DNA from: Stenotrophomonas sp. NA06056
GTDB lineage: Bacteria; Pseudomonadota; Gammaproteobacteria; Xanthomonadales; Xanthomonadaceae
DNA: 64,000 nucleotides
Reading direction: 5' to 3'
NCBI RefSeq assembly: GCF_013364355.1
Contig: NZ_CP054931.1
Coordinates: forward strand, 1,426,001 to 1,490,000
Position numbers and translations under genes: made by a program. The notes under the pieces were generated by a model. The model saw only the letters and a list, made by a program, of their open reading frames with translations. It made no database searches and was not told the DNA's origin. This document shows, piece by piece, positions 4,619-18,341 of this stretch (within the stretch, counting starts at the first letter, position 1; each line of letters opens with the position of its first letter).

Positions 4619-4890
4619 ACGCGAAACGGATCGAGCAGATTCGTGATGCGCTGCAGCAATCGCTGGCCCCCAGCGTGCTTGAGATCGAAGACGACAGCCA
4701 TCGCCATGCAGGCCACGCCGGAGCACGCGATGGTCGTGGCCATTTCAACGTGCACGTGGTCAGCGAGCGCTTCGCGGGAATGGCCCCGCTGGCGCGTCAT
4801 CGCGCGGTCTACGCGGCGCTGGGCACGCTGATGGAAACCGACATCCACGCATTGTCCATCCGCGCACACACCCCGTCAGAGAAGGGCTGA
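4615..4890 (+). CDS. BolA family protein
   Basis: This is a 91-residue BolA-like protein. BolA proteins are small class II KH-like proteins that pair with monothiol glutaredoxins and act in iron-sulfur trafficking or transcription. The helix-strand core [15 protein letters not shown] with following [11 protein letters not shown] near residues 42-70 is the BolA signature, and a His/Gly-rich loop (HRHAGHAG) precedes it. The start codon is GTG, overlapping the yciI stop in a GTGA context. A bulged hairpin terminator follows. Confidence 0.9.
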
Positions 4891-4904
4891 AGCCCTGTCC
4901 CAAG

Positions 4905-4949
4905 CTGTCCTGGCAGGTCCGTCGAGCGACCTGCCAAGGACAGATTTTT
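4905..4949 (+). terminator. Rho-independent terminator after bolA-like gene
   Basis: The arms at 4905-4919 and 4928-4943 pair over 15 bp with a single bulged A and an 8-nt loop. They are followed directly by ATTTTTG. The hairpin lies 15 bp after the bolA-like stop. Confidence 0.85.
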
Positions 4950-4996
4950 GTGTCCGTTCAGGGACATTCGCCTAACGGACTGTTTACAAGCGCAGA

Positions 4997-5010
4997 TGGA
5001 AACGCTTACA
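4997..5010 (+). promoter_or_regulatory. LacI-type operator before the regulator gene
   Basis: TGGAAACGCTTACA is a pseudo-palindrome centred on CG, of the type bound by LacI/GalR-family regulators (compare cre-type consensus TGnAAnCGnTnnCA). It lies 45 bp before the proposed lacI-family start, which suggests autoregulation. A closely matching site occurs at 9390-9403, upstream of the GH144 gene. Confidence 0.75.
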
Positions 5011-5054
5011 TTCCGCGCCATTGCTGGTAGATCCAAGCCGTGGAGGGCGGCTTC

Positions 5055-6077
5055 GTGAACAAAGCAGCCATAACAATCAAAGACGTCGCCCGTGAAGCCA
5101 AGGTCTCTGTGGCCACGGTTTCGCGTGCGCTCAATGGGCATGAGAATGTTGCCGAACCGGTCCGCCAGCTGGTGCTGGAGGTGGCCGCACGGCTGCGTTA
5201 TACCCCGCATGCCGCCGCCCGCAGCCTGAGCAGCCGCCGCACCAATACGGTGGGTGTGGTGCTTCCCGATCTGTACGGCGAGTTCTTTTCCGAGCTGATG
5301 CGTGGCATCGACAACGTCGCCCGCAGCCGGCGCCAGCACCTGCTGGTGTCGAGCTATCACGGCGACCAGGAGCAGCAGGGCGCCGCCCTGCGGGCCATGC
5401 GCGGTCGGGTCGACGGTCTGCTGGTGCTCTCGCCCTATGCAGAGAGCCCGGGATTCCTGACCGACAACCTGCCGCAGGCATTGCCGACGGTACTCATCAA
5501 CACCTACCTGCCTGAGCAGGACCACCCGGTGTTGAGCATCGATGACCATGCCGGGGCGATGGCGATGACCCGCCACCTGCTCGACGCCGGCCATCGGCGC
5601 ATTGCATTCATTTCTGGCCCGGACCTCAACTTCGACGCGCGTGAGCGCCTGCGCGGCTTCCGTGATGCGCTGGCGGCTTTTGGCGGTGGCGCCGAGGGGA
5701 TCGAGTTGCCCGGTGATTTCGACGAAGCTTCCGGCCATCGCGCCGGTCAGGAGTTGCTGGCAGCCGGCACGCTGCCCGATGCCGTATTCGCCGCCAACGA
5801 CATGATGGCCCTCGGTTGCCTGTATGCCTTCGCGCAGGCAGGTGTCCATGTGCCCTCCGACGTCGCCCTGGCCGGTTTCGATGACATTCCGCTTGCGCGT
5901 TTCGTCCACCCGTCGCTGACCACCATGCAGGTCAGCATCGCCGAACTGGGCGATCGGGCGATGTCGCGCTTGTTGCAGTTGATGGACGGCACCTCCACGG
6001 AAGGGGCAGGGGACAAACAGACCCTGGTCCCGCGCCTGATTGTTCGCGATTCCACCACTCCGCCATCCGGCCATTGA
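5055..6077 (+). CDS. LacI-family transcriptional regulator
   Basis: This DNA-binding repressor is expected to control the adjacent sugar-utilisation genes. It is 340 residues long with a GTG start. The helix-turn-helix is at the N-terminus (TIKDVAREAKVSVATVSRAL, about residues 7-26), followed by the hinge and a periplasmic-binding-protein-like sensor domain (GVVLPDLYGEFFSELMRGID near 70; GFDDIPLARFVHPSLTTM near 280). I prefer the GTG at 5055 because GGAGG sits 8 bp before it; a GTG at 5040 would add five residues. An operator overlaps its upstream region. The gene is followed by a TonB receptor in the same direction, 76 bp away. The effector sugar cannot be read from the sequence. Confidence 0.92.
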   Translation: MNKAAITIKDVAREAKVSVATVSRALNGHENVAEPVRQLVLEVAARLRYTPHAAARSLSSRRTNTVGVVLPDLYGEFFSELMRGIDNVARSRRQHLLVSSYHGDQEQQGAALRAMRGRVDGLLVLSPYAESPGFLTDNLPQALPTVLINTYLPEQDHPVLSIDDHAGAMAMTRHLLDAGHRRIAFISGPDLNFDARERLRGFRDALAAFGGGAEGIELPGDFDEASGHRAGQELLAAGTLPDAVFAANDMMALGCLYAFAQAGVHVPSDVALAGFDDIPLARFVHPSLTTMQVSIAELGDRAMSRLLQLMDGTSTEGAGDKQTLVPRLIVRDSTTPPSGH

Positions 6078-6153
6078 AGCCAGAGGCGTTCCTTCTTTTT
6101 TGATTGATCGCAGGTGCCGCGCAAGCGGTCACCGCCACCCGGAGATTGAGTTG

Positions 6154-9100
6154 ATGATGCATTCCACGATCCGCATGCCGGCGCGCCGGCTGCTGAGCAC
6201 CGCCCTGGTCAGCTGCCTGATGCTGGCCGCCGCTCCCAACGTCATGGCGCAGTCGGCCAACGCCAGCCTGCGCGGCCAGGTGTCCGGCGCGCAGGCCGGT
6301 GCCGAAGTCACCGCCACCAACGTCGCCACCGGCACCGTGCGTCGCGGCACCGTGCGCGCCGATGGCAGCTATTCGCTGATGGGCCTGGACCCGGGTACCT
6401 ATGACGTGGTGGCCAACGGCCAGACCCAGAAGGTCACCGTCACCGTCGCCTCGACCTCGACGCTGAACTTCGCTGGCGCCGCCGCCGGCGGCACCGGTAC
6501 GACCGCCGCCACCAACCTGGACACCGTCAACGTCGTTGCGCCGACCCTGCTGCAGGAAGTGCGTACCTCTGAAGTTGGCAAGACCGTCAGCCTGCAGCAG
6601 ATCCAGACCACCCCGCAGGTGTCGCGCAACTTCCTGGAGTTCGCCGACGCGGTGCCGGGCCTGATCTTCACCCGCGATGCGAAGGGCAACACTTCGCTGC
6701 GCGGCGGCGCCACCAATGCCGACGGCACCAACGTCTACATCGACGGCGTGGGCCAGAAGAGCTACGTCAAGGGCGGCGGTGTGGCCGGCCAGTCCGGCAG
6801 CGCCGGCAACCCGTTCCCGCAGCTGGCCATCGGCGAGTACAAGGTCATCAGCGGCAACTACAAGGCCGAGTACGGCCAGGTGTCGAGCGCTGCAGTGACC
6901 GCGGCCACCAAGTCCGGTACCAATGAATTCAAGGGTGAGGCGTTCTACCGCTACACCGACGAGGACATGCGCGCCAAGACCCCGGCCGAGCGCCAGGGCG
7001 GCAAGGACAAGATGGTCTCGGCCGAGAAGGAATACGGCTTCGCGCTGGGTGGCCCGATCATCCAGGACAAGGCGCACTTCTTCGTGACCTATGAAGCCAA
7101 GCGCTTCGACCTGCCGGTCACCATCGCGCCGGACGGCGCGGTCACCGGTGCTGCTGGCTTGTTGCCGGCCGTGGGCGCCGCCGGCCTGGGCCCGGCCAGC
7201 CAGCCGTTCCAGCAGGATCTGATCTTCGGCAAGATCGACTTCGAACCGACCGACAACGATCGCATCGAGCTGACCTTCCAGGACCGCGATGAAACCCAGT
7301 CGCAGTTCAGTGGCCAGACCTCGCCGGAAGCCGGCCGTGAAGTGGTCAACACCGACCGTCGTTACGCCCTGCGCTGGAACCACAGCGGCGAGCGTTACTA
7401 CAACGAAATGATGGTCACCCATGAAGATTCGTTCAACAACCCGACGCCGCTGACCCTGGCCAATGGCATCACCTATACCGCACCGGACGGCACCGAAGAC
7501 CGCACCGTGGTCAAGATCGGTGGCGCATCGGCACTGGATTCGCAGGTGAAGGGCCAGAAGGGCTGGTCGATCGAAGACAACCTGACCCTGGACGGCATCC
7601 AGTGGGCCGGCGACCACACCATCAAGATGGGCGTGAAGTACAAGGCGATCGACCTGTACGCATCTGATGCGGCGCAGATCAATCCGACCTTCACCTACAG
7701 CCTGGGCGATCCGGACTTCCCGGACTCCATTCCGTACAAGGCGCAGTTCGTCAAGCCGGTGACCGGCGTGTCGGGCGTGTCCGGCGAGGTGCGTTCGAAG
7801 TCCAAGCAGTACGGCGTGTTCATCCAGGACGACTGGCAGGTCAACGACCATCTGCAGCTGAACATCGGCCTGCGTTGGGACTACGAGAAGACCCCGTCCT
7901 ATCTGGATTTCGTGACCCCGCAGCAGGTGGTCGACGCGATCTACTCGCAGGATCCGCGCGGCCCCGCCGGCCAGACCTACGCCGATTCGCTGGCGCTGGG
8001 CGGTCTGGACATCAGCGACTACATCAGCAACGGCCACAACCGCAAGGCGTTCAAGGATGCCTGGCAGCCGCGCCTGGGCTTCTCGTATGACATCAACGCC
8101 GATGAGCAGCACGTGATCCACGGTGGTGCCGGCCGTTCCTACGACCGCGACCTGTTCGACAACCTGCAGCTGGAAACCACCAAGCTGGCCCTGCCGCAGC
8201 CGACGATCTACTTCCGCAACCCGGCCACCGGCACCTGCATCAACGGCCAGGCCGCCTGCTATGACTGGAACCCGAACCTGCTCAACGGTATCGGCAACCT
8301 GCAGTCGCTGGTCGGTGCGACCAGCAATGCGGGCCTGGAAGTCGATCTGCTCAACAACAAGCTGAAGGCTCCGTACTCGGATCAGTTCAGCCTGGGCATG
8401 AGCAACCAGATCGGTGACTGGCTGACCGACGCCACCATCGCGCGCACGCTGAGCTACGACGGCTTCGCCTTCACCCTGGGCAACCGCTACCCGACCGGCC
8501 AGTTCTTCGATGACCCGCGCCTGTGCGGCGGCACCGACCCGGGCCTGAGCCAGGCCTGGAGCTGCAACGTGCCGGGCTTCGGCAGCCTGATCATCGGCCA
8601 GCAGGGCATCAAGACCCGCGCTACCCAGATCCTGCTGTCGGCGCAGAAGCCGTTCACCCAGGAAAGCGGCTGGGGCACCTCGATCGCCTACACCTGGACG
8701 ACCGCGCGCCACAACCGCGACATCAACGAGAAGTACGCCTTTGACCGCGGCCTGATCGGCGATTACCCGACCATCCGCTCCAACGGCGCGCCGCGCCACC
8801 GCCTGGTGGTGACCGGTTCGTACGCGGGCTTCTGGGGCATCACCTTCGGCGGCAAGATCACCCTGGCCACGCCGACCGCCGTCAACGACTGGTACCCGGT
8901 GCCGCAGGCCAGTGGCTACAACCTGCCGACCCCGCAGGCGGCCGTGCCCAACGCCAATGGCAAGTTCCTGGTGGGTGGCAAGATCTTCGGCTACCGTTCG
9001 GTCGACCTGCAGGCGACGAAGACGTTCAAGATGCCGGGCGATACCGAGCTGTACGCGCGTATCGACATCATCAACGTGTTCAACTTCGACAACTTCTCCA

Positions 9101-9210
9101 CCTACAACTACGTCAAGACCAACGGCAAGCTGCAGGCCAGCTACAACGAGACCGGCGAGATCATCGGTACGCCGCGCCAGGTCAAGGCCGAAGTGGGCTT
9201 CCGCTTCTAA
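6154..9210 (+). CDS. Oar-like TonB-dependent receptor with carboxypeptidase-regulatory-like domain
   Basis: This outer-membrane receptor probably imports an oligosaccharide. The 1018-residue protein has a signal peptide (cleavage near VMAQSANA, residue 32), an Ig-like carboxypeptidase-regulatory domain at about 33-110 (SLRGQVSGAQAGAEVTATN, SYSLMGLDPGTYDVV), a plug domain at about 130-250 and a beta-barrel that ends in the terminal Phe typical of outer-membrane proteins (VGFRF). GGAG at 6141-6144 supports the ATG at 6154; the next codon is also ATG. It lies between the LacI-type regulator and the GH144 gene, an arrangement typical of xanthomonad carbohydrate-utilisation loci with TonB receptors. 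The substrate is inferred only from these neighbours. Confidence 0.9.
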   Translation: MMHSTIRMPARRLLSTALVSCLMLAAAPNVMAQSANASLRGQVSGAQAGAEVTATNVATGTVRRGTVRADGSYSLMGLDPGTYDVVANGQTQKVTVTVASTSTLNFAGAAAGGTGTTAATNLDTVNVVAPTLLQEVRTSEVGKTVSLQQIQTTPQVSRNFLEFADAVPGLIFTRDAKGNTSLRGGATNADGTNVYIDGVGQKSYVKGGGVAGQSGSAGNPFPQLAIGEYKVISGNYKAEYGQVSSAAVTAATKSGTNEFKGEAFYRYTDEDMRAKTPAERQGGKDKMVSAEKEYGFALGGPIIQDKAHFFVTYEAKRFDLPVTIAPDGAVTGAAGLLPAVGAAGLGPASQPFQQDLIFGKIDFEPTDNDRIELTFQDRDETQSQFSGQTSPEAGREVVNTDRRYALRWNHSGERYYNEMMVTHEDSFNNPTPLTLANGITYTAPDGTEDRTVVKIGGASALDSQVKGQKGWSIEDNLTLDGIQWAGDHTIKMGVKYKAIDLYASDAAQINPTFTYSLGDPDFPDSIPYKAQFVKPVTGVSGVSGEVRSKSKQYGVFIQDDWQVNDHLQLNIGLRWDYEKTPSYLDFVTPQQVVDAIYSQDPRGPAGQTYADSLALGGLDISDYISNGHNRKAFKDAWQPRLGFSYDINADEQHVIHGGAGRSYDRDLFDNLQLETTKLALPQPTIYFRNPATGTCINGQAACYDWNPNLLNGIGNLQSLVGATSNAGLEVDLLNNKLKAPYSDQFSLGMSNQIGDWLTDATIARTLSYDGFAFTLGNRYPTGQFFDDPRLCGGTDPGLSQAWSCNVPGFGSLIIGQQGIKTRATQILLSAQKPFTQESGWGTSIAYTWTTARHNRDINEKYAFDRGLIGDYPTIRSNGAPRHRLVVTGSYAGFWGITFGGKITLATPTAVNDWYPVPQASGYNLPTPQAAVPNANGKFLVGGKIFGYRSVDLQATKTFKMPGDTELYARIDIINVFNFDNFSTYNYVKTNGKLQASYNETGEIIGTPRQVKAEVGFRF

Positions 9211-9389
9211 GCGGAATGCCGGATGCAGCACCACGGAGCCATCGGTTCGCCGATGGTTCCGGTTTCAACGGCAATGGCCGGCCTCCGGGCCGGTCCATTG
9301 TCCAGACCATTGCCAGACAGGGGGCAATGGCCTGGGCGATGATTGCGGTGTCATCAACCACGTTTCCGTGGTTTTTTAAGACCGCACTT
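9211..9389. other. Hairpin-rich gap between receptor and GH144 gene
   Basis: Several stems follow the receptor stop. The one at 9235-9260 has 11 pairs (one G-T) around a TTCG tetraloop but lacks a good T run. A bulged stem spans about 9272-9301 and an 8-bp stem pairs 9306-9313 with 9323-9330. The stem at 9356-9373 is followed by T residues and is listed separately. The operator for the next gene begins at 9390. Confidence 0.6.
9356..9377 (+). terminator. Rho-independent terminator after the TonB receptor
   Basis: A 7-bp stem AACCACG/CGTGGTT with a TTTC loop runs into TTTTTT. It separates the receptor transcript from the downstream hydrolase operon, which then needs its own promoter; an operator lies 12 bp further on. 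Confidence 0.8.
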
Positions 9390-9403
9390 TGTAAACGATT
9401 TCA
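9390..9403 (+). promoter_or_regulatory. LacI-type operator before the GH144-ABC operon
   Basis: TGTAAACGATTTCA matches the operator at 4997-5010 when read on the opposite strand (TGAAATCGTTTACA against TGGAAACGCTTACA, 11 of 14 positions). It lies 54 bp before the GH144 start and just after a terminator, so it is placed to repress the operon 9457-18165. Confidence 0.75.
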
Positions 9404-9456
9404 GGTCATTGGACGTTATGCTCTTTCATCGATCAGCCCACCGGAGGAACCGCGCC

Positions 9457-11061
9457 ATGCAGGCACGCCATCTGATGACCGCCGCTGCGATGACCCTGGC
9501 CATCGCCGCCTGCAAACCGGCCCAGCAGGAGCCTGCCAAGCCGCGTCCGCCGGTGATCCTGATCGAGGCCGACGCACCGCCACGGCCGATGAAGCCCGAG
9601 CTGCCGCCGCTGTTCGATGACCTCGAACGCCGCACTTTCCAGTTCTTCTGGGATACCACCAACGAGATCAACGGCCTTACTCCGGACCGTTACCCGTCGC
9701 GGCCGTTTGCCAGCATCGCCTCGGTCGGCTTCGCCCTGACCGCCTATCCGATCGGCATCGAGAACGGCTGGGTCAGCCGCAACCAGGCGATCGACCGCAC
9801 CCTGACCACCCTGAAGTTCTTCCGCGACGTGCCGATGGGCCCGCAGCGCACCGGCAAGGCCGGTTACAAGGGTTTCTATTACCACTTCCTGGACATGCAG
9901 CAGGGCCGCCGCTACGACAGCTGGGTGGAACTGTCCTCGGTGGATACCGCGTTGCTGATGATGGGCGTTCTGTTCGCACAGTCGTACTACGACGGCGACG
10001 ATCCGCGCGAGAAGGAAATCCGGCAGATCGCCGACACCCTGTACAAGCAGGTCGACTGGCCGTGGCTGCAGCAGCGTGCGCCGCTGATCTCGATGGGCTG
10101 GTTCCCCGAGAACGGCTTCATCGACCATGACTGGATGGGCTACAACGAGGCGATGATGGTCTACATCCTTGCCCTGGGTTCGCCCAGCCATCCGGTGAGC
10201 CCGGATGCGTGGACGGTATGGACGCGGACCTACGACAACGACTGGGGTGTCTACCAGGGCCAGGAATACCTGTCCTTCGGCCCGTTGTTCGGCCACCAGT
10301 ACAGCCACGTCTGGATCGATTTCCGCGACATCCAGGATGCGTACATGCGCGAGCGTGGCAGCACCTACTTCCTCAACAGCCGCTCAGCCGCGCTGGCCCA
10401 GCGTGAGTACGCCATCGCCAATCCGATGAACTGGAAGGAGTACGGCGAGAACGTATGGGGCCTGACCGCCAGTGATGGTCCGCAGAACACCACCCAGGAA
10501 TACCGCGGCGAGCAGCGCCAGTTCCGCCATTACTCTTCGCGTGGCGCAGGCCTGCGCGAGAATTTCGATGACGGCACGATCGCGCCAACCGCCGCGATCT
10601 CCTCGGTCGTGTTCGCGCCCGAGGAAGTGATCCCGGCCACGCTGGAGATGCACAAGCGCTACGGCGACTACATCTACTCCAGCTATGGCTTCCTGGATTC
10701 GTTCAATCCCAGTTTCAACTACGACATCCCGATCAAGACCGGGCGCGTCGTGCCGGATCGCGGCTGGGTTGCCAGCGACTACATCGCGATCGACCAAGGG
10801 CCGATCCTGACCATGATCGCCAACTACCGCAACGACTTCGTCTGGGATGTGATGAAGAAGAATCCGTACATCCGCAAGGGCCTGGAACGGGCGGGCTTCA
10901 GTGGCGGCTGGCTGGCGCCGGAAGGTGAGTTCCAGCCGCTGGAGCTGCAGAAGGATGAAAAGGCCGCAGCAGCACGTGCGGTCGGTATCGCCGAATCACG
11001 TGCGGCTGCCGCGCAGGAACAGAAAAACAATGCCAACCGCAACACCGGTCAGGGGAAGTAA
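9457..11061 (+). CDS. GH144/glucoamylase-family lipoprotein (putative beta-1,2-glucanase)
   Basis: This is a predicted surface or periplasmic endo-glucanase. The 534-residue protein has a lipoprotein signal (AIAAC, Cys19), a Pro-rich linker, then one catalytic domain from about residue 50 to 500. Motifs of the Pfam glucoamylase-like/GH144 family are visible: RRTFQFFWDTTNEINGL near 57-73, SSVDTALLMMG near 162, HDWMGYNEAMMVYILALG from His224 and HVWIDFRDIQDAYM near 288. Characterised GH144 members cleave beta-1,2-glucan endolytically; that this member does the same is inference. GGAGGA lies 8 bp before the start. The C-terminal 35 residues are Ala/Gln/Asn-rich. It leads an operon with an ABC importer and a second glycosidase. 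Confidence 0.85.
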   Translation: MQARHLMTAAAMTLAIAACKPAQQEPAKPRPPVILIEADAPPRPMKPELPPLFDDLERRTFQFFWDTTNEINGLTPDRYPSRPFASIASVGFALTAYPIGIENGWVSRNQAIDRTLTTLKFFRDVPMGPQRTGKAGYKGFYYHFLDMQQGRRYDSWVELSSVDTALLMMGVLFAQSYYDGDDPREKEIRQIADTLYKQVDWPWLQQRAPLISMGWFPENGFIDHDWMGYNEAMMVYILALGSPSHPVSPDAWTVWTRTYDNDWGVYQGQEYLSFGPLFGHQYSHVWIDFRDIQDAYMRERGSTYFLNSRSAALAQREYAIANPMNWKEYGENVWGLTASDGPQNTTQEYRGEQRQFRHYSSRGAGLRENFDDGTIAPTAAISSVVFAPEEVIPATLEMHKRYGDYIYSSYGFLDSFNPSFNYDIPIKTGRVVPDRGWVASDYIAIDQGPILTMIANYRNDFVWDVMKKNPYIRKGLERAGFSGGWLAPEGEFQPLELQKDEKAAAARAVGIAESRAAAAQEQKNNANRNTGQGK

Positions 11062-11065
11062 CAAG

Positions 11066-12406
11066 GTGCACGACTGGAAACACCGCCTGCGACGCTGGGC
11101 ATTGCCTGCACTGGCCGCGCTGGTCATGGTTGGCTGCGCTCGCCCCGAGCAGGGCACCACTACCGTGCGATTCTGGGCGATGGGCCGCGAGGCCGAAGTG
11201 GTCAGCGAACTGATCCATGAATTCGAAGCGGAGAACCCCGGCATCAAGGTCGATGTGCAGAACATCCCCTGGACCGCCGCGCACGAGAAGCTGCTGACTG
11301 CGTTCGCCGCCGATGGTCTGCCCGACGTGTGCCAGCTCGGCAACACGTGGGTGCCCGAGTTCGCGGAACTCAACGCGCTGACCCCGTTGCAGCCGTTCGT
11401 GCAGCGCTCGACCGTGGTCGATCCGAAGGACTATTTCCAGGGCATCTGGGATACCAACGTGATCCACGACGAGCTGGTTGGCGTGCCGTGGTACGTCGAT
11501 ACCCGCCTGATCTATTACCGCAAGGACCTGCTGGCCAAGGCCGGCTTCGACCACCCGCCGCGCACCTGGGCCGAGTGGGACCAGCAGATGGCCGCGATCA
11601 AGAAGATGCAGGGCCCGAACCGCTATGCGGTGCTGATGCCGATCAACGAATTCGAGCAGCAGCTGTCGTTGGCCCTGCAGCAACCGGATCCGTTGCTGCG
11701 CGACGATGACACCCGTGGCAATTTCTCCAGCCCCGGTTTCCGCCGCACGCTTGGTTTCTACGCCAACATGTTCGAGCAGGGCTGGGCGCCGAAGATGTCC
11801 GAGACGCAGATCTCCAACGTCTGGGATGAATTCTTCCGCGGCTTCAATGTGTTCTACATCTCCGGCCCTTGGAACATCCGCGAGTTCAAGAAGCTGCAGC
11901 CGAAGGAACTGGAAGGGCAGTGGGGCACCGCCGCGCTGCCGGGTCCGGAGGGTCCGGGCGCGGGCATCGCTGGTGGCACCAGCCTGGTGATCTTCCGCAA
12001 GTCACAGCAGAAGGAGGCGTCGTGGAAGCTGATCGAGTTCCTGTCGCGCCCGGAAATCCAGGCGCGCTTCCATTCGATCATCGGTGACCTGCCGCCGCGC
12101 CGCAGCACCTGGAACGCGCCGTCGCTGGCCAACGATCCGCTTGCCGCCGCGTTCCGCGACCAGCTGGAGCGGGTCAAGCCGACCCCGAAGGTGCTCGAAT
12201 GGGAGCGCATCGTGCAGGAAATGCGCATCGTCACCGAACAGGTGGTGCGCGGTGGCCTGCCGCAGGACAAGGCCGTGGCCGAGCTGGACCAGCGCGTGGA
12301 CAAGGTGCTGGCCAAGCGCCGTTGGATGCATGAACAACAACGCCTGCAGCGCAGCGCACCCGCCCCGGGTTCGACCAGTGCAGTCGCGGCCGGGAGCCCG
12401 CAATGA
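11066..12406 (+). CDS. Sugar ABC transporter substrate-binding lipoprotein
   Basis: This captures a sugar or oligosaccharide for the two permeases that follow. The 446-residue protein has a lipoprotein signal (VMVGC, Cys near residue 23) and the family 1 extracellular solute-binding fold: TTVRFWAMGREAEVV at the mature N-terminus, ENPGIKVDVQNIPW, GLPDVCQLGNTWVPEF and FFRGFNVFYISGPWNIREF. The start is a GTG at 11066 with GGGGAAG upstream, 4 bp after the GH144 stop; an ATG at 11029 would overlap the GH144 gene. Its stop overlaps the first permease start (ATGA). Confidence 0.9.
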   Translation: MHDWKHRLRRWALPALAALVMVGCARPEQGTTTVRFWAMGREAEVVSELIHEFEAENPGIKVDVQNIPWTAAHEKLLTAFAADGLPDVCQLGNTWVPEFAELNALTPLQPFVQRSTVVDPKDYFQGIWDTNVIHDELVGVPWYVDTRLIYYRKDLLAKAGFDHPPRTWAEWDQQMAAIKKMQGPNRYAVLMPINEFEQQLSLALQQPDPLLRDDDTRGNFSSPGFRRTLGFYANMFEQGWAPKMSETQISNVWDEFFRGFNVFYISGPWNIREFKKLQPKELEGQWGTAALPGPEGPGAGIAGGTSLVIFRKSQQKEASWKLIEFLSRPEIQARFHSIIGDLPPRRSTWNAPSLANDPLAAAFRDQLERVKPTPKVLEWERIVQEMRIVTEQVVRGGLPQDKAVAELDQRVDKVLAKRRWMHEQQRLQRSAPAPGSTSAVAAGSPQ

Positions 12407-13284
12407 AACGTACTTCGCTTGCCGGCTGGATCTTTGCCGGTCCCTCGCTGATCGTGCTCGGCGTGTTCTTCGGCCTGCCGGTGGCCTCGGCGCTGGCGCT
12501 GAGCGTGACCGACTTCGACCTGTATGCGCTGGCTGACAGCAGCAACCTGCGCTTCGTGGGGCTTGGCAACTACATCGACCTGCTGCAGACCCCGATGTTC
12601 TGGAAGTCGCTGTGGAACACCACGTACTTCGTGGTGATCGGCGTGCCATTGTCGATCGGCGTGTCGCTGGGCGCGGCGATGCTGCTCAATGCCCCGGCCG
12701 CGCGCTTCAAGGCGTTGTTCCGCACCGCGCTGTTCGCCCCGGTGGTGACCACGCTGGTGGCGGTGGCGGTGATCTGGCGCTACCTGTTCCACACCAGCTA
12801 CGGCCTGGTGAACTATGGCCTGGGCCACCTCGGCATCAGCCCGATCGACTGGCTGGGCGACCCCAACTGGGCGATGCCGACCATCATGCTGTTCGCGGTG
12901 TGGAAGAACTTCGGCTACAACATGGTGATCTTCCTGGCTGGCCTGCAGGCGATCCCGCATGACCTGTACGAGGCGGCGCGCATCGACGGTGCTTCGCGCT
13001 GGAAGCAGTTCCTGCACATCACCCTGCCGATGCTCGGCCCGGTGCTGCTGGTGGTCGGGGTGATTACGGTGTCCGGCTATTTCCAGCTGTTCGCAGAGCC
13101 TTACGTGATGACCCGCGGCGACCCACTGCAGAGCACCGTCAGCGTGCTGTATTTCATGTTCGAGGAAGGCTTCAAGTGGTGGAACCTGGGACGCGCCTCG
13201 GCTGTGGCGTTCCTGCTGTTCCTGATCATCCTGGCGGTGACCACCGTGATGCTGCGCTTTGGCCGCAAGAGGCAGTTGGTATGA
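12403..13284 (+). CDS. Sugar ABC transporter permease (MalF/UgpA-type)
   Basis: This is an inner-membrane subunit of a carbohydrate importer. The 293-residue protein has six predicted membrane segments; the first is near residues 7-28 (WIFAGPSLIVLGVFFGLPVA). The EAA loop that contacts the ATPase is near 190 (YEAARIDGASRWKQFLHITL). It overlaps the upstream binding protein and the downstream permease by 4 bp each. No ATP-binding subunit is encoded here, so an MsiK/MalK-like ATPase from elsewhere must energise the system. Confidence 0.92.
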   Translation: MKRTSLAGWIFAGPSLIVLGVFFGLPVASALALSVTDFDLYALADSSNLRFVGLGNYIDLLQTPMFWKSLWNTTYFVVIGVPLSIGVSLGAAMLLNAPAARFKALFRTALFAPVVTTLVAVAVIWRYLFHTSYGLVNYGLGHLGISPIDWLGDPNWAMPTIMLFAVWKNFGYNMVIFLAGLQAIPHDLYEAARIDGASRWKQFLHITLPMLGPVLLVVGVITVSGYFQLFAEPYVMTRGDPLQSTVSVLYFMFEEGFKWWNLGRASAVAFLLFLIILAVTTVMLRFGRKRQLV

Positions 13285-14117
13285 GTCGTGAAATCGGCCA
13301 GTCACGCTGGCACCCATGGATGATCAACGGTGCGTTGCTGGTGCTGGCCCTGGTCAGCCTGGCACCGTTGCTGTGGATGCTCTCGGTCTCGTTCATGCCG
13401 CAGGGTGAGGCGACTCATTTTCCGCCGCCGCTGCTGCCGTCCAGCATCACCACGCACAACTACACGGAGCTGTTCGCGCGTACCGGCATGGGCGGCAACT
13501 TCGCCAACAGCCTGCTGGTCTCGCTGGCGATCACCCTTGGTTCGCTGCTGCTCAACACGATGGCCGGGTACGCGTTCGCCAAGCTCAATTTCGTCGGTCG
13601 TGAGCGCCTGTTCCAGGTGCTGATGGCCGCGCTGGTGATCCCGGCGCAGGTGGCGATGCTGCCGCTGTTCCTGCTGATGAAGCAGCTGGGCCTGGTCAAC
13701 AGCTTCGGCGGTGTGATCGTGCCGGCGCTGGCCAGCGTGTTCGGCATCTTCCTGGTGCGGCAGTACGCCCGCTCCATTCCCGATGAGCTGCTGGAAGCGG
13801 CGCGCATCGACGGGGCAGGGGAGCTGCGGATCTTCTTCCAGATCGTGCTGCCGATGCTGAAACCGGTGCTGGTGACGCTGGCGATCTTCACCTTCATGGG
13901 CGCCTGGAATGATTTCATGTGGCCCCTGATCGTGTTGACCGACCAGGAGCACTACACTTTGCCGGTGGCCCTGGCCACCCTCTCGCGCGAACACATCATG
14001 GACGTGGAAATGATGATGGCCGGCGCAGTGGTCACCGTGGTTCCGGTGCTGGCGCTGTTCCTTGTGCTGCAGCGGTACTACATCCAAGGATTGTTGCTGG
14101 GGAGCGTGAAGGGATGA
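13281..14117 (+). CDS. Sugar ABC transporter permease (MalG/UgpE-type)
   Basis: This is the second inner-membrane subunit of the importer, 278 residues with six predicted membrane helices. The EAA loop is near residue 170 (LEAARIDGAGELRIFFQIVL), followed by TFMGAWNDFMWPLIVL. The start at 13281 gives a 4-bp ATGA overlap with the first permease; an upstream extension would run deep into that gene. Its own stop overlaps the start of the discoidin-domain gene. Confidence 0.92.
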   Translation: MSREIGQSRWHPWMINGALLVLALVSLAPLLWMLSVSFMPQGEATHFPPPLLPSSITTHNYTELFARTGMGGNFANSLLVSLAITLGSLLLNTMAGYAFAKLNFVGRERLFQVLMAALVIPAQVAMLPLFLLMKQLGLVNSFGGVIVPALASVFGIFLVRQYARSIPDELLEAARIDGAGELRIFFQIVLPMLKPVLVTLAIFTFMGAWNDFMWPLIVLTDQEHYTLPVALATLSREHIMDVEMMMAGAVVTVVPVLALFLVLQRYYIQGLLLGSVKG

Positions 14118-17100
14118 AGCGTGCGATCGCCGTTGGACTGGGCCTGTTGTGGTCTTCCCTGGCGATCGCCGCACCACCGGCGCTGCCCGCGCCGAAGGTG
14201 CTGGATGATTTCGACGACATCAGCGCATGGAAGCTGGTGTTGTCCGACCAGGTCAGTGGCTCGCTGCGGCCCGTCAGTGGTGCCGGCGGTGGCCGCGCGC
14301 TGTGCCTGGATTACGACTTCCATGAGGTTTCCGGCTACGTCGGCATCCGCCGCCCGCTGAACATCGAGTACCCGGCCAACTACCGTTTCGGCTTCCAGAT
14401 GCGCGGTGATTCGCCAGCCAATGATTTGCAGTTCAAGCTGATCGACGCCAGCGGCGATAACGTGTGGTGGGTCAACCGTCCCGGCTATGCCTTCCCCAAG
14501 GCGTGGACGCCGGTGGAGTACCGCCGGCGGCAGATCGACAAGGCCTGGGGGCCATCGCCGGAGAAGGACATGACGCGCAGCGCGTCGATGGAATTCACGA
14601 TCTACAGCAAGGTCGGCGGCCGCGGTACCGTGTGCTTCGACAAGCTGACCCTGCAGGGCTTGCCTGCGCAGGATGATTCAGCGTTGCGGCCCTCGGTGAT
14701 CGCCGATACCGCAACCGCGCTGCAGGACCGGATGATCGACGGCAAGTCCGATACTTTCTGGATCAGTGGCGGGGTCAAGCAGCAGACCATCAGCCTGGAC
14801 CTGCACAAGAGCCGCGAGATCGGCGGTGCGGTGATCGACTGGCTGCCCAGCCTGGAAGCGAACCGCTACACCGTGCGTACCTCCGAGGATGGCCGTGACT
14901 GGCGAACCGTGCGTGAGGTGACTGCCGGTGCCGGAGGCCGCGACTGGCTGGCACTGCCCGACACCGATGCGCGCTACGTGCGGTTCGACCTGCAGGATGG
15001 GCCGAACTGGCGCTACGGCATCCGTGACATCACCCTGAAGCCTTTGGCCTTCGCTGCGACGCCCAATGCCTTCCTGTCCTCGGTGGCAGCTGACCTGCCG
15101 CGTGGCGCATTGCCGCGTGCCTACGTTGGCGAGCAGCCGTACTGGACCCTGCTTGGTCTGGACGGTGGCCAGGAGCAGGCATTGATCAGCGAGGACGGCG
15201 CACTGGAGCCAGCCAAGGGCAGCTTCAGCATCGAGCCGTTCATCCGCCTCGACGGCAAGCTGCTGGATTGGGCCGACGTTGCCATCACCCAGTCGCTGCA
15301 GGATCGCTACCTGCCGATCGCCACGGTCGACTGGGTGCACGAGAAGGCCGGCTTGTCGGTGACCAGCTTCGTGCAGGGCACGCCCGAACGCGCGCAGCTG
15401 ATCGGGCGCTACCGTTTGAGCAATCCGGACAAGGTCGCGCACGAATACACCCTGGCCCTGGCGATCCGCCCGTGGCAGGTCAATCCGCCCACCCAGTTCC
15501 TCAACACGGTGGGCGGCTTCAGCCGCATCGACAGTCTGGACGTGGGCGAGCAGCTGGTGCGCATCAACGGCGAGCCGCGGCTGTATCCCCTGCAGGTGCC
15601 GGACGCGCGCTTTGCCAGCAGCTTCGACGGCAAGCTGGATGCGATGCACCTGGCCAGTGGCAAGCTGCCCGGCACCACCGCCGTGAAGGACCCGACCGGT
15701 ATGGCGTCGGGTGCGCTGATGTACACGATCAAGCTCGAACCCGGGCAGAGCCGTGAGGTGGCGATCGTGCTGCCGCAGACCGGCAGCTGGGCGCCGCAGG
15801 CGCTGGATGCGGCCAAGGCGCAGCAGCAGGTCGCGGCGATGTGGCGTGACAAGCTGGGCGTGGTGACCCTGCAGGTGCCGGCTGCCGGCCAACCGCTGGT
15901 GGAGACCCTTCGCACGGCGGTGGCGCACATGCTGATCTCGCGCGTCGGCCCGCGCCTGCATCCGGGTACGCGCTCGTACGCGCGCAGCTGGATCCGCGAT
16001 GGCGCGATGATTTCCGAAGGCCTGCTGCGGATGGGCCGTAGCGATGCCGTGCGCGACTACGTGACCTGGTATGCGCCTTACCAGTTTGATAACGGCAAGG
16101 TGCCGTGCTGCGTCGATGCACGTGGCAGCGATCCGGTGCCCGAGAACGACAGCCACGGCGAGCTGATCTACAACATTGCCGAGTACGGCCGTTACACCGG
16201 CGACACCGCCTTCCTCGAACAGATGTGGCCGCACGTGCAGGGCGCCTTCAACTACATGGAGCAGCTGCGCACCAGCGAGCGCACCGATGAGAACCGGGCG
16301 CGCAATCCGGCCTTCTACGGGATGATGCCGGCCTCGATCAGTCACGAGGGCTATTCGGCCAAGCCGATGCACTCGTACTGGGACAACTTCTGGGCGCTGC
16401 GTGGTTACAAGGACGCCGCGCAGTTGGCGGCGCAGCTGGGCAAGGTCGAGGCGATGCAGATCAGCGAATCGCGTGACCAGTTCCGCGATGACCTGCAGGC
16501 CTCGCTGCTGTCGGCCATGCAGCAGCACCGCATCGACTACCTGCCGGGCTCGGCCGAGCTGGGTGATTTCGACGCCACTTCCACCACGATCGCGTTGGCA
16601 CCGGGTGGCGAGCAGGGGAGGTTGCCGCAGGAGGCGCTGGACGCGACCTTCCAGCGTTACTGGAACGAATTCGTCGCGCGCCGCGATGGCAAGCGCGAAT
16701 GGAAGGACTACACGCCGTACGAATGGCGCAACGTCGCTGCGTTCGTGCGCCTGGGCTGGCGTGAGCGTGCCTGGCAGGCCACCGAGTTCTTCTTCAAGGA
16801 TCGTGCGCCGCAGGCATGGAACCAGTGGGCAGAGGTGGTCTCGCGGACACCGCGCAAGCCGTTCTTTGTCGGTGACCTGCCGCATGCCTGGGTGGCATCG
16901 GACTTCGTCCGTTCGGCGCTGGACATGTTCGCCTACAACCGCGATGCGGATGAGGCGCTGGTACTCGCAGCAGGTATCCCGGTGTCGTGGCTGCAGGGCG
17001 ATGGCATCGCCGTGCAGGGCCTGCGTACGCCGCAGGGGCAACTCAACTATCGCCTGCAGCGCAGCGACAAGCAGCTGGTGCTGGACGTACAGCCCGGCCT

Positions 17101-17281
17101 GGTGCCCCCGGTCGGTGGCGTGGTGCTGCCATGGCCATATTCGGGCGAGCCGGGGCAGGCGACGGTCAATGGCGAAGCGGTGGAGTGGATCAACAACGAG
17201 CTGCATGTGCATCAGTTGCCGGCACGGGTCGAGATCGACGTGCCCAGCGCGGTGCGTCGCGCTGAGCGCAAGGGGCAGTAA
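14114..17281 (+). CDS. Secreted discoidin-domain protein with six-hairpin glycosidase-like barrel
   Basis: This is a predicted exported glycosidase of unknown specificity, 1055 residues. A signal peptide ends near AIAAPPAL (residue 20). Residues about 28-185 form a beta-rich, carbohydrate-binding-like domain (DDFDDISAWKLV). A discoidin/F5-8 type C domain is at about 190-315 (MIDGKSDTFWISGG, YVRFDLQDG). Then comes a beta-sandwich linker, and from about 590 to 940 an alpha/alpha barrel with SWIRDGAMISEGLLRMG near 622, HGELIYNIAEYGRYTGD near 681 and SYWDNFWALRGY near 754, features shared by GH15/GH37/GH63-type enzymes. The likely acids are Asp626 and acids of the 681 and 754 segments. It overlaps the permease gene by 4 bp, so it belongs to the glucan operon. 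I cannot place it in a numbered family. Confidence 0.8.
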   Translation: MKRAIAVGLGLLWSSLAIAAPPALPAPKVLDDFDDISAWKLVLSDQVSGSLRPVSGAGGGRALCLDYDFHEVSGYVGIRRPLNIEYPANYRFGFQMRGDSPANDLQFKLIDASGDNVWWVNRPGYAFPKAWTPVEYRRRQIDKAWGPSPEKDMTRSASMEFTIYSKVGGRGTVCFDKLTLQGLPAQDDSALRPSVIADTATALQDRMIDGKSDTFWISGGVKQQTISLDLHKSREIGGAVIDWLPSLEANRYTVRTSEDGRDWRTVREVTAGAGGRDWLALPDTDARYVRFDLQDGPNWRYGIRDITLKPLAFAATPNAFLSSVAADLPRGALPRAYVGEQPYWTLLGLDGGQEQALISEDGALEPAKGSFSIEPFIRLDGKLLDWADVAITQSLQDRYLPIATVDWVHEKAGLSVTSFVQGTPERAQLIGRYRLSNPDKVAHEYTLALAIRPWQVNPPTQFLNTVGGFSRIDSLDVGEQLVRINGEPRLYPLQVPDARFASSFDGKLDAMHLASGKLPGTTAVKDPTGMASGALMYTIKLEPGQSREVAIVLPQTGSWAPQALDAAKAQQQVAAMWRDKLGVVTLQVPAAGQPLVETLRTAVAHMLISRVGPRLHPGTRSYARSWIRDGAMISEGLLRMGRSDAVRDYVTWYAPYQFDNGKVPCCVDARGSDPVPENDSHGELIYNIAEYGRYTGDTAFLEQMWPHVQGAFNYMEQLRTSERTDENRARNPAFYGMMPASISHEGYSAKPMHSYWDNFWALRGYKDAAQLAAQLGKVEAMQISESRDQFRDDLQASLLSAMQQHRIDYLPGSAELGDFDATSTTIALAPGGEQGRLPQEALDATFQRYWNEFVARRDGKREWKDYTPYEWRNVAAFVRLGWRERAWQATEFFFKDRAPQAWNQWAEVVSRTPRKPFFVGDLPHAWVASDFVRSALDMFAYNRDADEALVLAAGIPVSWLQGDGIAVQGLRTPQGQLNYRLQRSDKQLVLDVQPGLVPPVGGVVLPWPYSGEPGQATVNGEAVEWINNELHVHQLPARVEIDVPSAVRRAERKGQ

Positions 17282-17283
17282 CC

Positions 17284-18165
17284 ATGCGTCAACCGCGTGG
17301 AATCGGCCGCAGTCTCGGCGTACTTGGGCTGGCGATCGCGTTGGCCCTGCCCGGAGTGGCGCCAGCCGCTGCAGCGGTCGCCGCGGTTGATGCGGCGTCG
17401 ATCAGCGAGCCGGGCATGAGCATGGTGACGTTCAACCTGCACCATGATCGCGAGGACTGGCCCAGCCGCCGCCGCACGATCGTGGCTGAGCTCAAGCGCC
17501 TGCAGCCCGATGCCATCGCACTGCAGGAGGTGATCCAGAGGCGCAACGTGCGCAACCAGGCGCAGTGGCTGGCCAGCCAGCTCGGTTACCGGTATGTATT
17601 CGTGTCCACCGACCCAGTGGGTGCGCCCAAGCGCTATGGCAATGCACTACTGACCCGGCGCCCGATCCTGGCCCGTGGCGAGCACCTGCTGCTGCCGCTG
17701 GATGACTATCGCACCGTGGCCCACCTGCGCATCGACGTGGACGGCAAGCCGGTCAATGTCTATGCCACCCACCTCAACGAGCGCAGTGACGACACCGGCC
17801 AGCGCATCCGCCGCAGCCAGGTCGAGGATCTGCTGCGCTACATCACCGCGACATCCGCTGGCGCGCCGGTGGTGATCGCCGGCGACTTCAATGCGCTGGT
17901 CGATGCTGGAGACCTGAGCGAGCTGCGCAGCTACTACGGCGACAGCTACGGCAGCGTGCACGTCAACACCGACCTGGCCGGCGTCAGTACGCTCAACCGT
18001 CATTACTACCAGGCGCCGTCGCGGATCGATCACATCTTCTTCCAGCAGGACCAGATGGTCGCGCGCGAAGCGAAGATCCTGTTTGACCAGCCGGATGATG
18101 GCGGCCGTTGGGCGTCGGATCACTACGGGGTGTGGACCCGGTTGCAGTTCGCCCCGGCGAACTGA
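17284..18165 (+). CDS. Secreted endonuclease/exonuclease/phosphatase (EEP) family hydrolase
   Basis: This is a metal-dependent phosphodiesterase or phosphomonoesterase of the DNase I-like fold, 293 residues with a signal peptide of about 30 residues. All family catalytic positions are present: Asn51 (TFNLH), Glu82 (LQEV), His163 (ATHL), Asp201 and Asn203 (GDFNAL), the RIDHIFF strand at 247-253 and SDH at 278-280. It starts 2 bp after the discoidin gene and is the last gene of the operon. A phosphatase in a glucan locus could remove phosphate-linked substituents such as phosphoglycerol, but this is inference. A degenerate paralogue is at 29553-30389. Confidence 0.88.
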   Translation: MRQPRGIGRSLGVLGLAIALALPGVAPAAAAVAAVDAASISEPGMSMVTFNLHHDREDWPSRRRTIVAELKRLQPDAIALQEVIQRRNVRNQAQWLASQLGYRYVFVSTDPVGAPKRYGNALLTRRPILARGEHLLLPLDDYRTVAHLRIDVDGKPVNVYATHLNERSDDTGQRIRRSQVEDLLRYITATSAGAPVVIAGDFNALVDAGDLSELRSYYGDSYGSVHVNTDLAGVSTLNRHYYQAPSRIDHIFFQQDQMVAREAKILFDQPDDGGRWASDHYGVWTRLQFAPAN

Positions 18166-18176
18166 CACACGCGTTG

Positions 18177-18234
18177 GTAGATGCCAACCTTGGTTGGCAT
18201 GAAACCCACAGCGCCAACCAAGGTTGGCCTCTAC
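18177..18234. repeat. Inverted pair of SMAG-type palindromes
   Basis: GTAGATGCCAACCTTGGTTG on the plus strand is followed, after a short spacer, by its inverted partner ending in CTAC. Each unit is itself a palindrome around CCAACC/GGTTGG. The pair lies just after the glucan operon. Confidence 0.85.
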
Positions 18235-18287
18235 CAGAGCGCTGCCTCCTGATGGCAGGGGAGGGTAGGGACCAGACGCACAAACAA

Positions 18288-18318
18288 AAAAGGCGGGGAT
18301 CATCGATCCCCGCCTTTT
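18288..18318 (-). terminator. Bidirectional terminator between the glucan operon and rne
   Basis: A 10-bp stem GGCGGGGATC/GATCCCCGCC with a 3-nt loop is flanked by A4 and T4, so it can end both the minus-strand rne message and the plus-strand operon. It lies 24 bp beyond the rne stop. Confidence 0.9.
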
Positions 18319-18341
18319 CGTCTTACGCGATCAAAGAACGA

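Follow-up and report, generated by a model that had tools for sequence, protein, structure and literature searches.

Within the 64,000-nucleotide stretch of the Stenotrophomonas sp. NA06056 genome that was analysed (positions 1,426,001 to 1,490,000 of contig NZ_CP054931.1, hereafter the window, numbered from its first letter), a run of eight genes leads from a LacI-family regulator gene (lacI, 5055) to a gene for a protein of the endonuclease/exonuclease/phosphatase (EEP) superfamily (ending at 18165). As judged from sequence comparisons, the run quite likely makes up the proximal half of a regulon that is controlled by LacI and serves the catabolism of bacterial beta-1,2-glucan. This proposal is built on the gene content, the LacI-type operators and their conservation, the co-occurrence of the genes, their proximity in relatives and the similarity of one product to a proven enzyme of glycoside hydrolase family 144 (GH144). 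The operator and genome evidence ties this proven glucanase type to a regulator, a receptor, an importer, a displaced ATPase and a glucose pathway. The system is mostly an expected catabolic one with a core enzyme of known type; what is added is the displaced ATPase, the conserved operator map and a glycosidase-like protein carrying a discoidin domain, designated DGH, which is singled out as an enzyme of interest. No description of the whole locus was found in the open-access literature, subscription papers being outside the scope. Beta-1,2-glucans play a part in symbiosis and pathogenesis. Passages of a 2025 review (PMC11842490) describe the known enzyme variety around them as limited, and further background was drawn from parts of PMC11228985 and PMC1790865.

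Organization of the locus

The genome consists of one contig of 4.52 Mb and was placed in the Stenotrophomonas maltophilia group on the strength of GH144 proteins 97% identical to that of the window. The open reading frame list and the Pfam matches place the eight genes on the + strand in the order that had been proposed from the letters alone (the sequence-only reading), and its coordinates were borne out apart from the choice of start codons. The features that the argument needs are the following.

4997 to 5010, no strand assigned: operator 1, TGGAAACGCTTACA, predicted LacI-type site 5' of lacI (seen by eye; pattern search)
5055 to 6077, + strand: LacI-family regulator, start GTG 5055, recognition helix VATVSRALNG (Pfam, NCBIfam)
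6154 to 9210, + strand: Oar-type TonB-dependent receptor (TBDR), start ATG 6154, with carboxypeptidase-regulatory-like extension and barrel
9390 to 9403, no strand assigned: operator 2, TGTAAACGATTTCA, predicted site 5' of the GH144 operon (seen by eye; pattern search)
9457 to 11061, + strand: predicted GH144 endo-beta-1,2-glucanase, start ATG 9457, lipoprotein-like N-terminus (LAIAAC, by eye)
11066 to 12406, + strand: binding protein of the sugar importer, N-terminus read by eye as lipoprotein-like (PF01547, SBP_bac_1, 4e-42)
12403 to 13284, + strand: permease 1, UgpA/MalF type (PF00528, BPD_transp_1; NCBIfam UgpA 3e-39, below cut-off)
13281 to 14117, + strand: permease 2, UgpE/MalG type (PF00528, BPD_transp_1; NCBIfam UgpE 1e-40, below cut-off)
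14114 to 17281, + strand: DGH, discoidin protein of 1055 residues, signal-peptide-like start (by eye), predicted six-hairpin glycosidase domain
17284 to 18165, + strand: EEP-superfamily phosphodiesterase, signal-peptide-like start (PF03372, Exo_endo_phos, 4e-25)

The GH144-to-EEP genes are closely packed: a 4-bp gap is followed by three ATGA overlaps of 4 bp (12403-12406, 13281-13284 and 14114-14117), the chain that had already been noticed between 12403 and 14117, and by a 2-bp gap between DGH and EEP. For the binding protein the GTG at 11066, which is preceded by GGGGAAG and lies 4 bp past the GH144 stop, was preferred as start over the ATG at 11030.

Conservation was followed in the best 80 of 588 confirmed GH144 loci in genome records. 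The binding protein and permease 1 were present in all 80, DGH in 75, the TBDR in 74, lacI in 73 and EEP in 42, and the position of the TBDR in the locus was conserved among the relatives. Some of the losses are contig ends; the TBDR was unmatched in L033, L043, L056 and L080 despite 10 kb of upstream sequence. Downstream of EEP, the 42 loci that bear this gene have rne in 24 cases and eda-edd in two (L040, L046), and neither was found in the DNA available for the other 16. Neighbouring genes were labelled eda, edd, sdh and scpA by eye.

Conserved operators and the predicted regulon

The pattern TGNAANCGNTTNCA was searched in up to 130 bp upstream of each gene. It was found before lacI in all 73 loci possessing this gene, before GH144 in 59 of 80 and before the TBDR in 9 of the 71 readable cases, and it was absent upstream of the binding protein (0/80), permease 1 (0/80), DGH (0/75) and EEP (0/42); the letter-shuffle expectation was 0.00-0.02 per set. 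This distribution fits two predicted operons, lacI-TBDR and GH144-EEP. As in a LacI/GalR regulator, the product of lacI combines a LacI helix-turn-helix (Pfam LacI, 2e-15) with a periplasmic-binding-like core (Peripla_BP_3, 8e-37), and close to the start of its gene lies a palindrome with CG at the centre, to which the protein is predicted to bind. Its helix, VATVSRALNG, is unlike those of all five paralogues in the genome; GalR shares the 'VA' of the helix and this type of operator. The control by a LacI regulator assumed in the sequence-only reading thus gains support from the conserved operators.

A narrower pattern, TGTAARCGHTTYCA, was written from the two sites of the locus and searched over the 4.52-Mb genome. 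Five places matched exactly: the two locus sites and three others, which belong to an ATPase gene and two GH3 genes. The site of the ATPase gene lies 122 bp upstream of it, and the gene is divergent from zwf-glk-pgl (confirmed by Pfam in this genome and assigned in the relatives by BLAST to these). Another site lies 13 bp upstream of a GH3 gene, GH3c, whose product has no evident signal peptide. Allowing one mismatch gave 15 rows, with 7 further distinct places, and the reversed pattern gave one row. In the 60 genomes of the family that were compared, 26 of 30 loci with an orthologue of the ATPase carried a site within 400 bp of it, a raw count with no shuffle control.

At L092:2143-7459 (G000:C1 near 3162534) a GH97 gene precedes the gene of a TonB receptor that has a plug domain, and the stretch separating the two contains an operator-like site with one mismatch. 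Near 5082 of L089 (G000:C1:807081) the palindromic TGGAAGCGTTTCCA heads a class I fructose-bisphosphate aldolase frame.

The candidate ATPase of the importer

The locus had been called complete and its importer ATPase-less. The eight proteins contain no ATPase domain according to Pfam, and to that extent the description stands; however, a candidate UgpC-type ATPase with the same operator is encoded elsewhere, as are the candidate cytosolic beta-glucosidase and the glucose pathway, and the claim of completeness had to be given up. The window itself holds one other ABC ATPase domain, at approx. 39.6-40.1 kb; the frame that encodes it has 629 residues and no TOBE_2 match. The orphan ATPase, 1.14 Mb away, is one of two TOBE_2 ATPases in the genome and passes the UgpC subfamily cut-off (476.9 vs 432). 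The other one (L088) was rejected as partner, since it belongs to the polyamine subfamily (411.1 vs a cut-off of 355.6), with polyamine-transport-like neighbours by eye.

In the 60 family genomes, with GH144 called at E <=1e-30 and the ATPase at E <=1e-80, the two genes were present together in the identical 30 (Fisher 2e-17, genomes counted as independent). The distance between them is 8.7-18.9 kb in 24 of the 30; in the remaining six they are on separate contigs (four genomes), 72 kb apart (one) or, in the present genome, 1.14 Mb apart. In G044 and G029 the order is lacI, TBDR, GH144, binding protein, permeases 1 and 2 and DGH, then eda-edd-pgl-glk-zwf on the opposite strand, then the ATPase; the TBDR was not called in G044. 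Since the ATPase stands beside the GH144 locus in most relatives tested and has the same operator, the importer probably does have an ATPase, and the orphan UgpC-type protein is the one that probably drives it. An inversion with a breakpoint past EEP would explain the split seen here. The arrangement resembles that of the MsmX-type ABC sugar importers of Gram-positive bacteria, which share a remote ATPase whose gene is likewise separate from those of the binding proteins and permeases. The present ATPase, in contrast to a shared one of that type, tracks one system (identical sets of 30 among 60 genomes), adjoins the locus in most cases and carries its operator, and it therefore looks dedicated and displaced. 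In such cases a 'missing' ATPase can be traced through its operator.

Predicted cytosolic glucose pathway

GH3c passes the BglX cut-off (702.9 vs 666). Of the 30 loci, 17 have a GH1 beta-glucosidase gene divergent from the ATPase gene and 11 have zwf in this position; the query GH1 protein passes TIGR03356. GH3c at >=73% identity occurs in 13 of the 60 genomes; none of these is among the 17 with GH1, and the two sets add up to the 30 locus-bearing genomes. This suggests that one beta-glucosidase may have displaced the other, although the sets could also be just two clades. Five GH1 genomes hold an additional, distant GH3 (best match 46-58%).

The GH144 enzyme, the receptor and the probable substrate

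The GH144 protein matches PF10091 (Glycoamylase) with 8e-88 and 294 bits, the cut-off being 27, and its best solved match is XCC2207 (PDB 8xul; 1046.8 bits over 516 residues). The clan-defining residues E231, F278 and Y359 are kept in both, with a constant offset of 8 in a hand-read alignment. The profile search did not place the protein outside the family, and its earlier designation as a GH144-type lipoprotein can be retained.

XCC2207 is XcSGL of Xanthomonas campestris, which is classed in GH144 and was solved with Sop7 (PMC12102758). It is reported there to be specific for beta-1,2-glucan (3.85 U/mg), and no activity was detected on CM-cellulose (CM, carboxymethyl), barley beta-glucan, lichenan, laminarin, CM-curdlan, pustulan or starch (section 2.3). 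The sections drawn on concern the enzyme alone and bring in no regulator, transporter, ATPase or partner glycosidase. Because XcSGL is specific for beta-1,2-glucan and the binding protein of the window resembles Lin1841, this polymer is the most likely substrate, in agreement with the sequence-only reading, and the locus very probably degrades and imports it.

The receptor is Oar-like, with an extension of the PF13620 type (34.8 bits vs a cut-off of 32.3) and a PF25183 barrel (OMP_b-brl_4, 2e-51); the canonical plug domain was unmatched in Pfam. XCC2208, the next locus number after XCC2207, has likewise been described as a receptor lacking the canonical plug, in keeping with the order of the genes in the present locus.

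In 16 loci of the maltophilia group (L001-L016) the TBDR occurs in allele classes whose identity to that of the window is 96-97, 88-89 or 81-82%, LacI and GH144 remaining steady at 95-97%; the divergence of the TBDR lies beyond the first 250 alignment columns. Such a picture would fit an exchange of alleles at this place or diversifying selection.

Proposed pathway and alternatives

For the in vivo substrate, the inducer, the repression, the pairing with the ATPase and the order of the enzymatic steps we infer the following. The Oar-type receptor would carry the glucan over the outer membrane, the GH144 lipoprotein would cleave the beta-1,2 chain to sophoro-oligosaccharides and DGH would trim what GH144 leaves. 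The oligosaccharides would be imported by the binding protein and the two permeases, powered by the distant UgpC-type ATPase, and GH3c, or GH1 in other genera, would release glucose in the cytoplasm, where glucokinase, Zwf and Pgl would channel it into the Entner-Doudoroff route. LacI would repress lacI-TBDR, GH144-to-EEP, the ATPase gene (possibly zwf too) and the two GH3 genes until a breakdown product relieves the repression.

Several observations weigh against this scheme. Sixteen of the 80 loci have no site before the TBDR or GH144, the region upstream of GH144 being readable in all 80; 13 of these 16 have lacI with its own site, and thus a single operator before lacI may serve the whole locus there. 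The 7 places with one mismatch adjoin genes without an obvious link to the pathway, several of them sugar genes, and the operators are predicted ones, of a kind that other LacI proteins could use. The third exact site outside the locus covers the start codon of the second GH3 gene, whose product has a signal-like start. A site accompanies the GH3c orthologues in 7 of 24 loci, and in 3 of 13 at >=73% identity, one upstream region being unreadable. The absence of DGH is genuine in L068 and L069, both of which have 6.9 kb of DNA left and a GH1 gene downstream. The co-occurrence counts are uncorrected for relatedness, and the closest solved relative of the binding protein, 3uor, has a label of the maltose/trehalose type.

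The sequence-only reading had left it open whether the cell feeds on the glucans of its neighbours or recycles its own. The genome encodes OpgH (NF003957, over cut-off) and a single protein of the OpgG/D family, an OpgD. In a hand-read alignment to 8x18 this protein keeps W76, D343 and R477 of XccOpgD, which are published indicators of an alpha-1,6-cyclised beta-1,2-glucohexadecaose synthase; D342, E376 and D379 are kept too, and Q431 is K. OpgG/D occurs in 20 of the 60 genomes, 18 of which have GH144, compared with 12 of the 40 without OpgG/D. Both findings favour a system that mainly recycles the cell's own osmoregulated periplasmic glucan. However, 12 of the 30 GH144 genomes lack OpgG/D. 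Five of these contain a frame of approx. 2900 residues resembling a GH94-type cyclic-glucan synthase, and in the other seven (G008, G013, G016, G020, G021, G035, G039; completeness 99-100%) neither OpgG/D nor a cyclic-glucan synthase was found. The lack of both routes in 7 of the 30 locus-bearing genomes argues for foraging there, even if further synthesis routes may exist in them, and a periplasmic route should not require a TonB receptor in the outer membrane. Recycling is possible in the 18 genomes with OpgG/D; as the main function of the locus it seems rather unlikely, and for those seven genomes, at any rate, the use of foreign glucan as food is to be preferred.

The importer could also be a malEFG-like maltose/trehalose system merely lying beside GH144, with a regulator that answers alpha-glucosides. 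The binding protein and the two permeases form a CUT1-type importer (Pfam, NCBIfam), and NCBIfam matches to MalE, MalF and MalG were obtained below cut-off. The best solved match of the binding protein is 3uor (689 bits), labelled 'ABC transporter sugar binding protein' in the table of matches, which is known as 'Xac-MalE' of Xanthomonas citri, a putative maltose/trehalose protein; no paper on 3uor turned up. However, the second solved match, Lin1841 (5ysb, 223 bits), exceeds the third (115) and the first maltose-named chain (110), and the permeases fit UgpA and UgpE best. GH144 heads the operon of the binding protein, operators among the genes tested occur only before lacI, TBDR and GH144, and the system comes with enzymes of beta-glucosidase type (GH1 or GH3). 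Lin1841 binds Sop3-5 according to the part of PMC12369401 drawn on. Altogether the maltose/trehalose importer is quite unlikely, and the label of the solved 3uor deserves a check for sophoro-oligosaccharides, the present comparison being a lead for its re-annotation.

That the real substrate of the predicted beta-1,2-glucan system is another beta-glucan (1,3- or 1,6-linked, fungal or plant), a reading favoured by the breadth that GH3 enzymes often have and by the earlier choice of beta-1,3-glucan for testing, is extremely unlikely, since Pfam gives no further endo-glucanase family in the eight proteins and the relative activity of XcSGL on laminarin, CM-curdlan, pustulan, lichenan, barley beta-glucan and CM-cellulose was below 0.2% in Table 1 of PMC12102758.

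The DGH and EEP proteins

Two parts of DGH were distinguished.

14723 to 15025, + strand: F5/8 type C (CBM32-like) domain, residues 204-304 (PF00754, F5_F8_type_C, 3e-15; CBM32-type PDB chains)
15881 to 17278, + strand: C-terminal part, residues 590-1055, catalytic-like domain (weak TIGR01577, Bac_rhamnosid6H and GDE_C matches)

A discoidin domain was found in all 41 DGH members and a CBM11 match in 12 of the 41. The C-terminal part of 18 members gave weak matches to TIGR01577 (17), Bac_rhamnosid6H (16), GDE_C (13) and GH95 (9), and the precomputed domain annotation of some relatives contains PF06202 or PF17389. For the window DGH no family profile was over its cut-off (TIGR01577 30.7 vs 820.7, GDE_C 19.2 vs 21), and its catalytic part had no solved relative, the best PDB chain, a rhamnosidase, having E 0.77. 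DGH was rejected as a relative of the GH144/SGL clan (hhalign probability 1%) and, the profiles being below their curated cut-offs, as a plain GH15 or GH133 enzyme. Of the 'two outer hydrolases' of the sequence-only reading, GH144 is retained; DGH has weak six-hairpin glycosidase matches only.

Two subfamilies, approx. 32% alike, share R628, D629, E677, D679, E745, D757, E870, E907 and D921 without exception in 56 sequences, which fits an acid-catalysed glycosidase. The second subfamily was seen in Xanthomonas, Stenotrophomonas and others (L196:11999-15103; P0224, P0226, P0236; best 120 of 1073 matches). In G046 a DGH of this subfamily is divergent from GH144, with operator-like sites between the two genes.

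DGH might found an unassigned glycosidase family which completes the breakdown of alpha-1,6-cyclised beta-1,2-glucans by cleaving the single alpha-1,6 link that would be left once GH144 has cut the beta-1,2 ring. This role, which we regard as doubtful, was guessed because of the substrate and of the weak profiles of alpha-glucosidase type (GH15 'oligosaccharide amylase', amylo-alpha-1,6-glucosidase); an alpha-L-rhamnosidase six-hairpin profile fits about equally, and the two loci without DGH also speak against it. If true, the cyclic glucan whose synthesis is predicted for this lineage would have a breakdown pathway devoted to it. The EEP protein may strip phospho-substituents from foreign glucans, which is a tentative and rather doubtful guess. 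Its homologues number 444 matches, and among the 120 listed the names are only endonuclease/exonuclease/phosphatase or hypothetical.

Relation to known systems

In the parts of PMC12369401 drawn on, Listeria innocua lin1839-lin1841 and Streptomyces griseus SGR_2422-2427 combine the binding protein of a Sopn importer with a beta-glucosidase (GH3/GH1), as here, and the S. griseus cluster also has a GH193 protein. In contrast to these clusters, the present system has in addition the TonB receptor, the GH144 lipoprotein, the discoidin protein and EEP, its candidate ATPase is remote and genes of the glucose pathway adjoin the ATPase gene; PF06165 is unmatched in the genome, leaving GH94 phosphorolysis unsupported. 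In published passages on Xanthomonas carbohydrate utilization loci containing TonB-dependent receptors (CUT loci), e.g. sux, a LacI-family repressor, a TonB receptor, an inner-membrane sugar transporter and a glycoside enzyme are co-controlled, which resembles the arrangement predicted here. The sux system uses a major-facilitator transporter and sucrose, whereas here an ABC importer, an unlinked ATPase and, very probably, beta-1,2-glucan would be involved.

Further features of the window

4983 to 5012, + strand: sigma-70-like promoter, -10 hexamer (5007-5012) overlapping operator 1
18287 to 18319, no strand assigned: hairpin of 15 pairs resembling a terminator, past EEP and before the convergent rne; score from the - strand, + reading by eye

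The promoter was the sole match in 4700-18500; shuffles averaged 2.2, and by itself it is not above chance. Rfam at gathering threshold gave no match within the window and the PHROGs search nothing useful. Long antisense frames on the - strand lie opposite the TBDR (5932-9234, 1100 aa) and DGH (14678-17212, 844 aa); they are probably by-products of the high GC content and not evidence of genes. A pseudouridine-synthase-like protein (named by eye) is encoded on the - strand at 468-2222 and has a low-complexity tail rich in Gly, Arg and Asn (468-1100).

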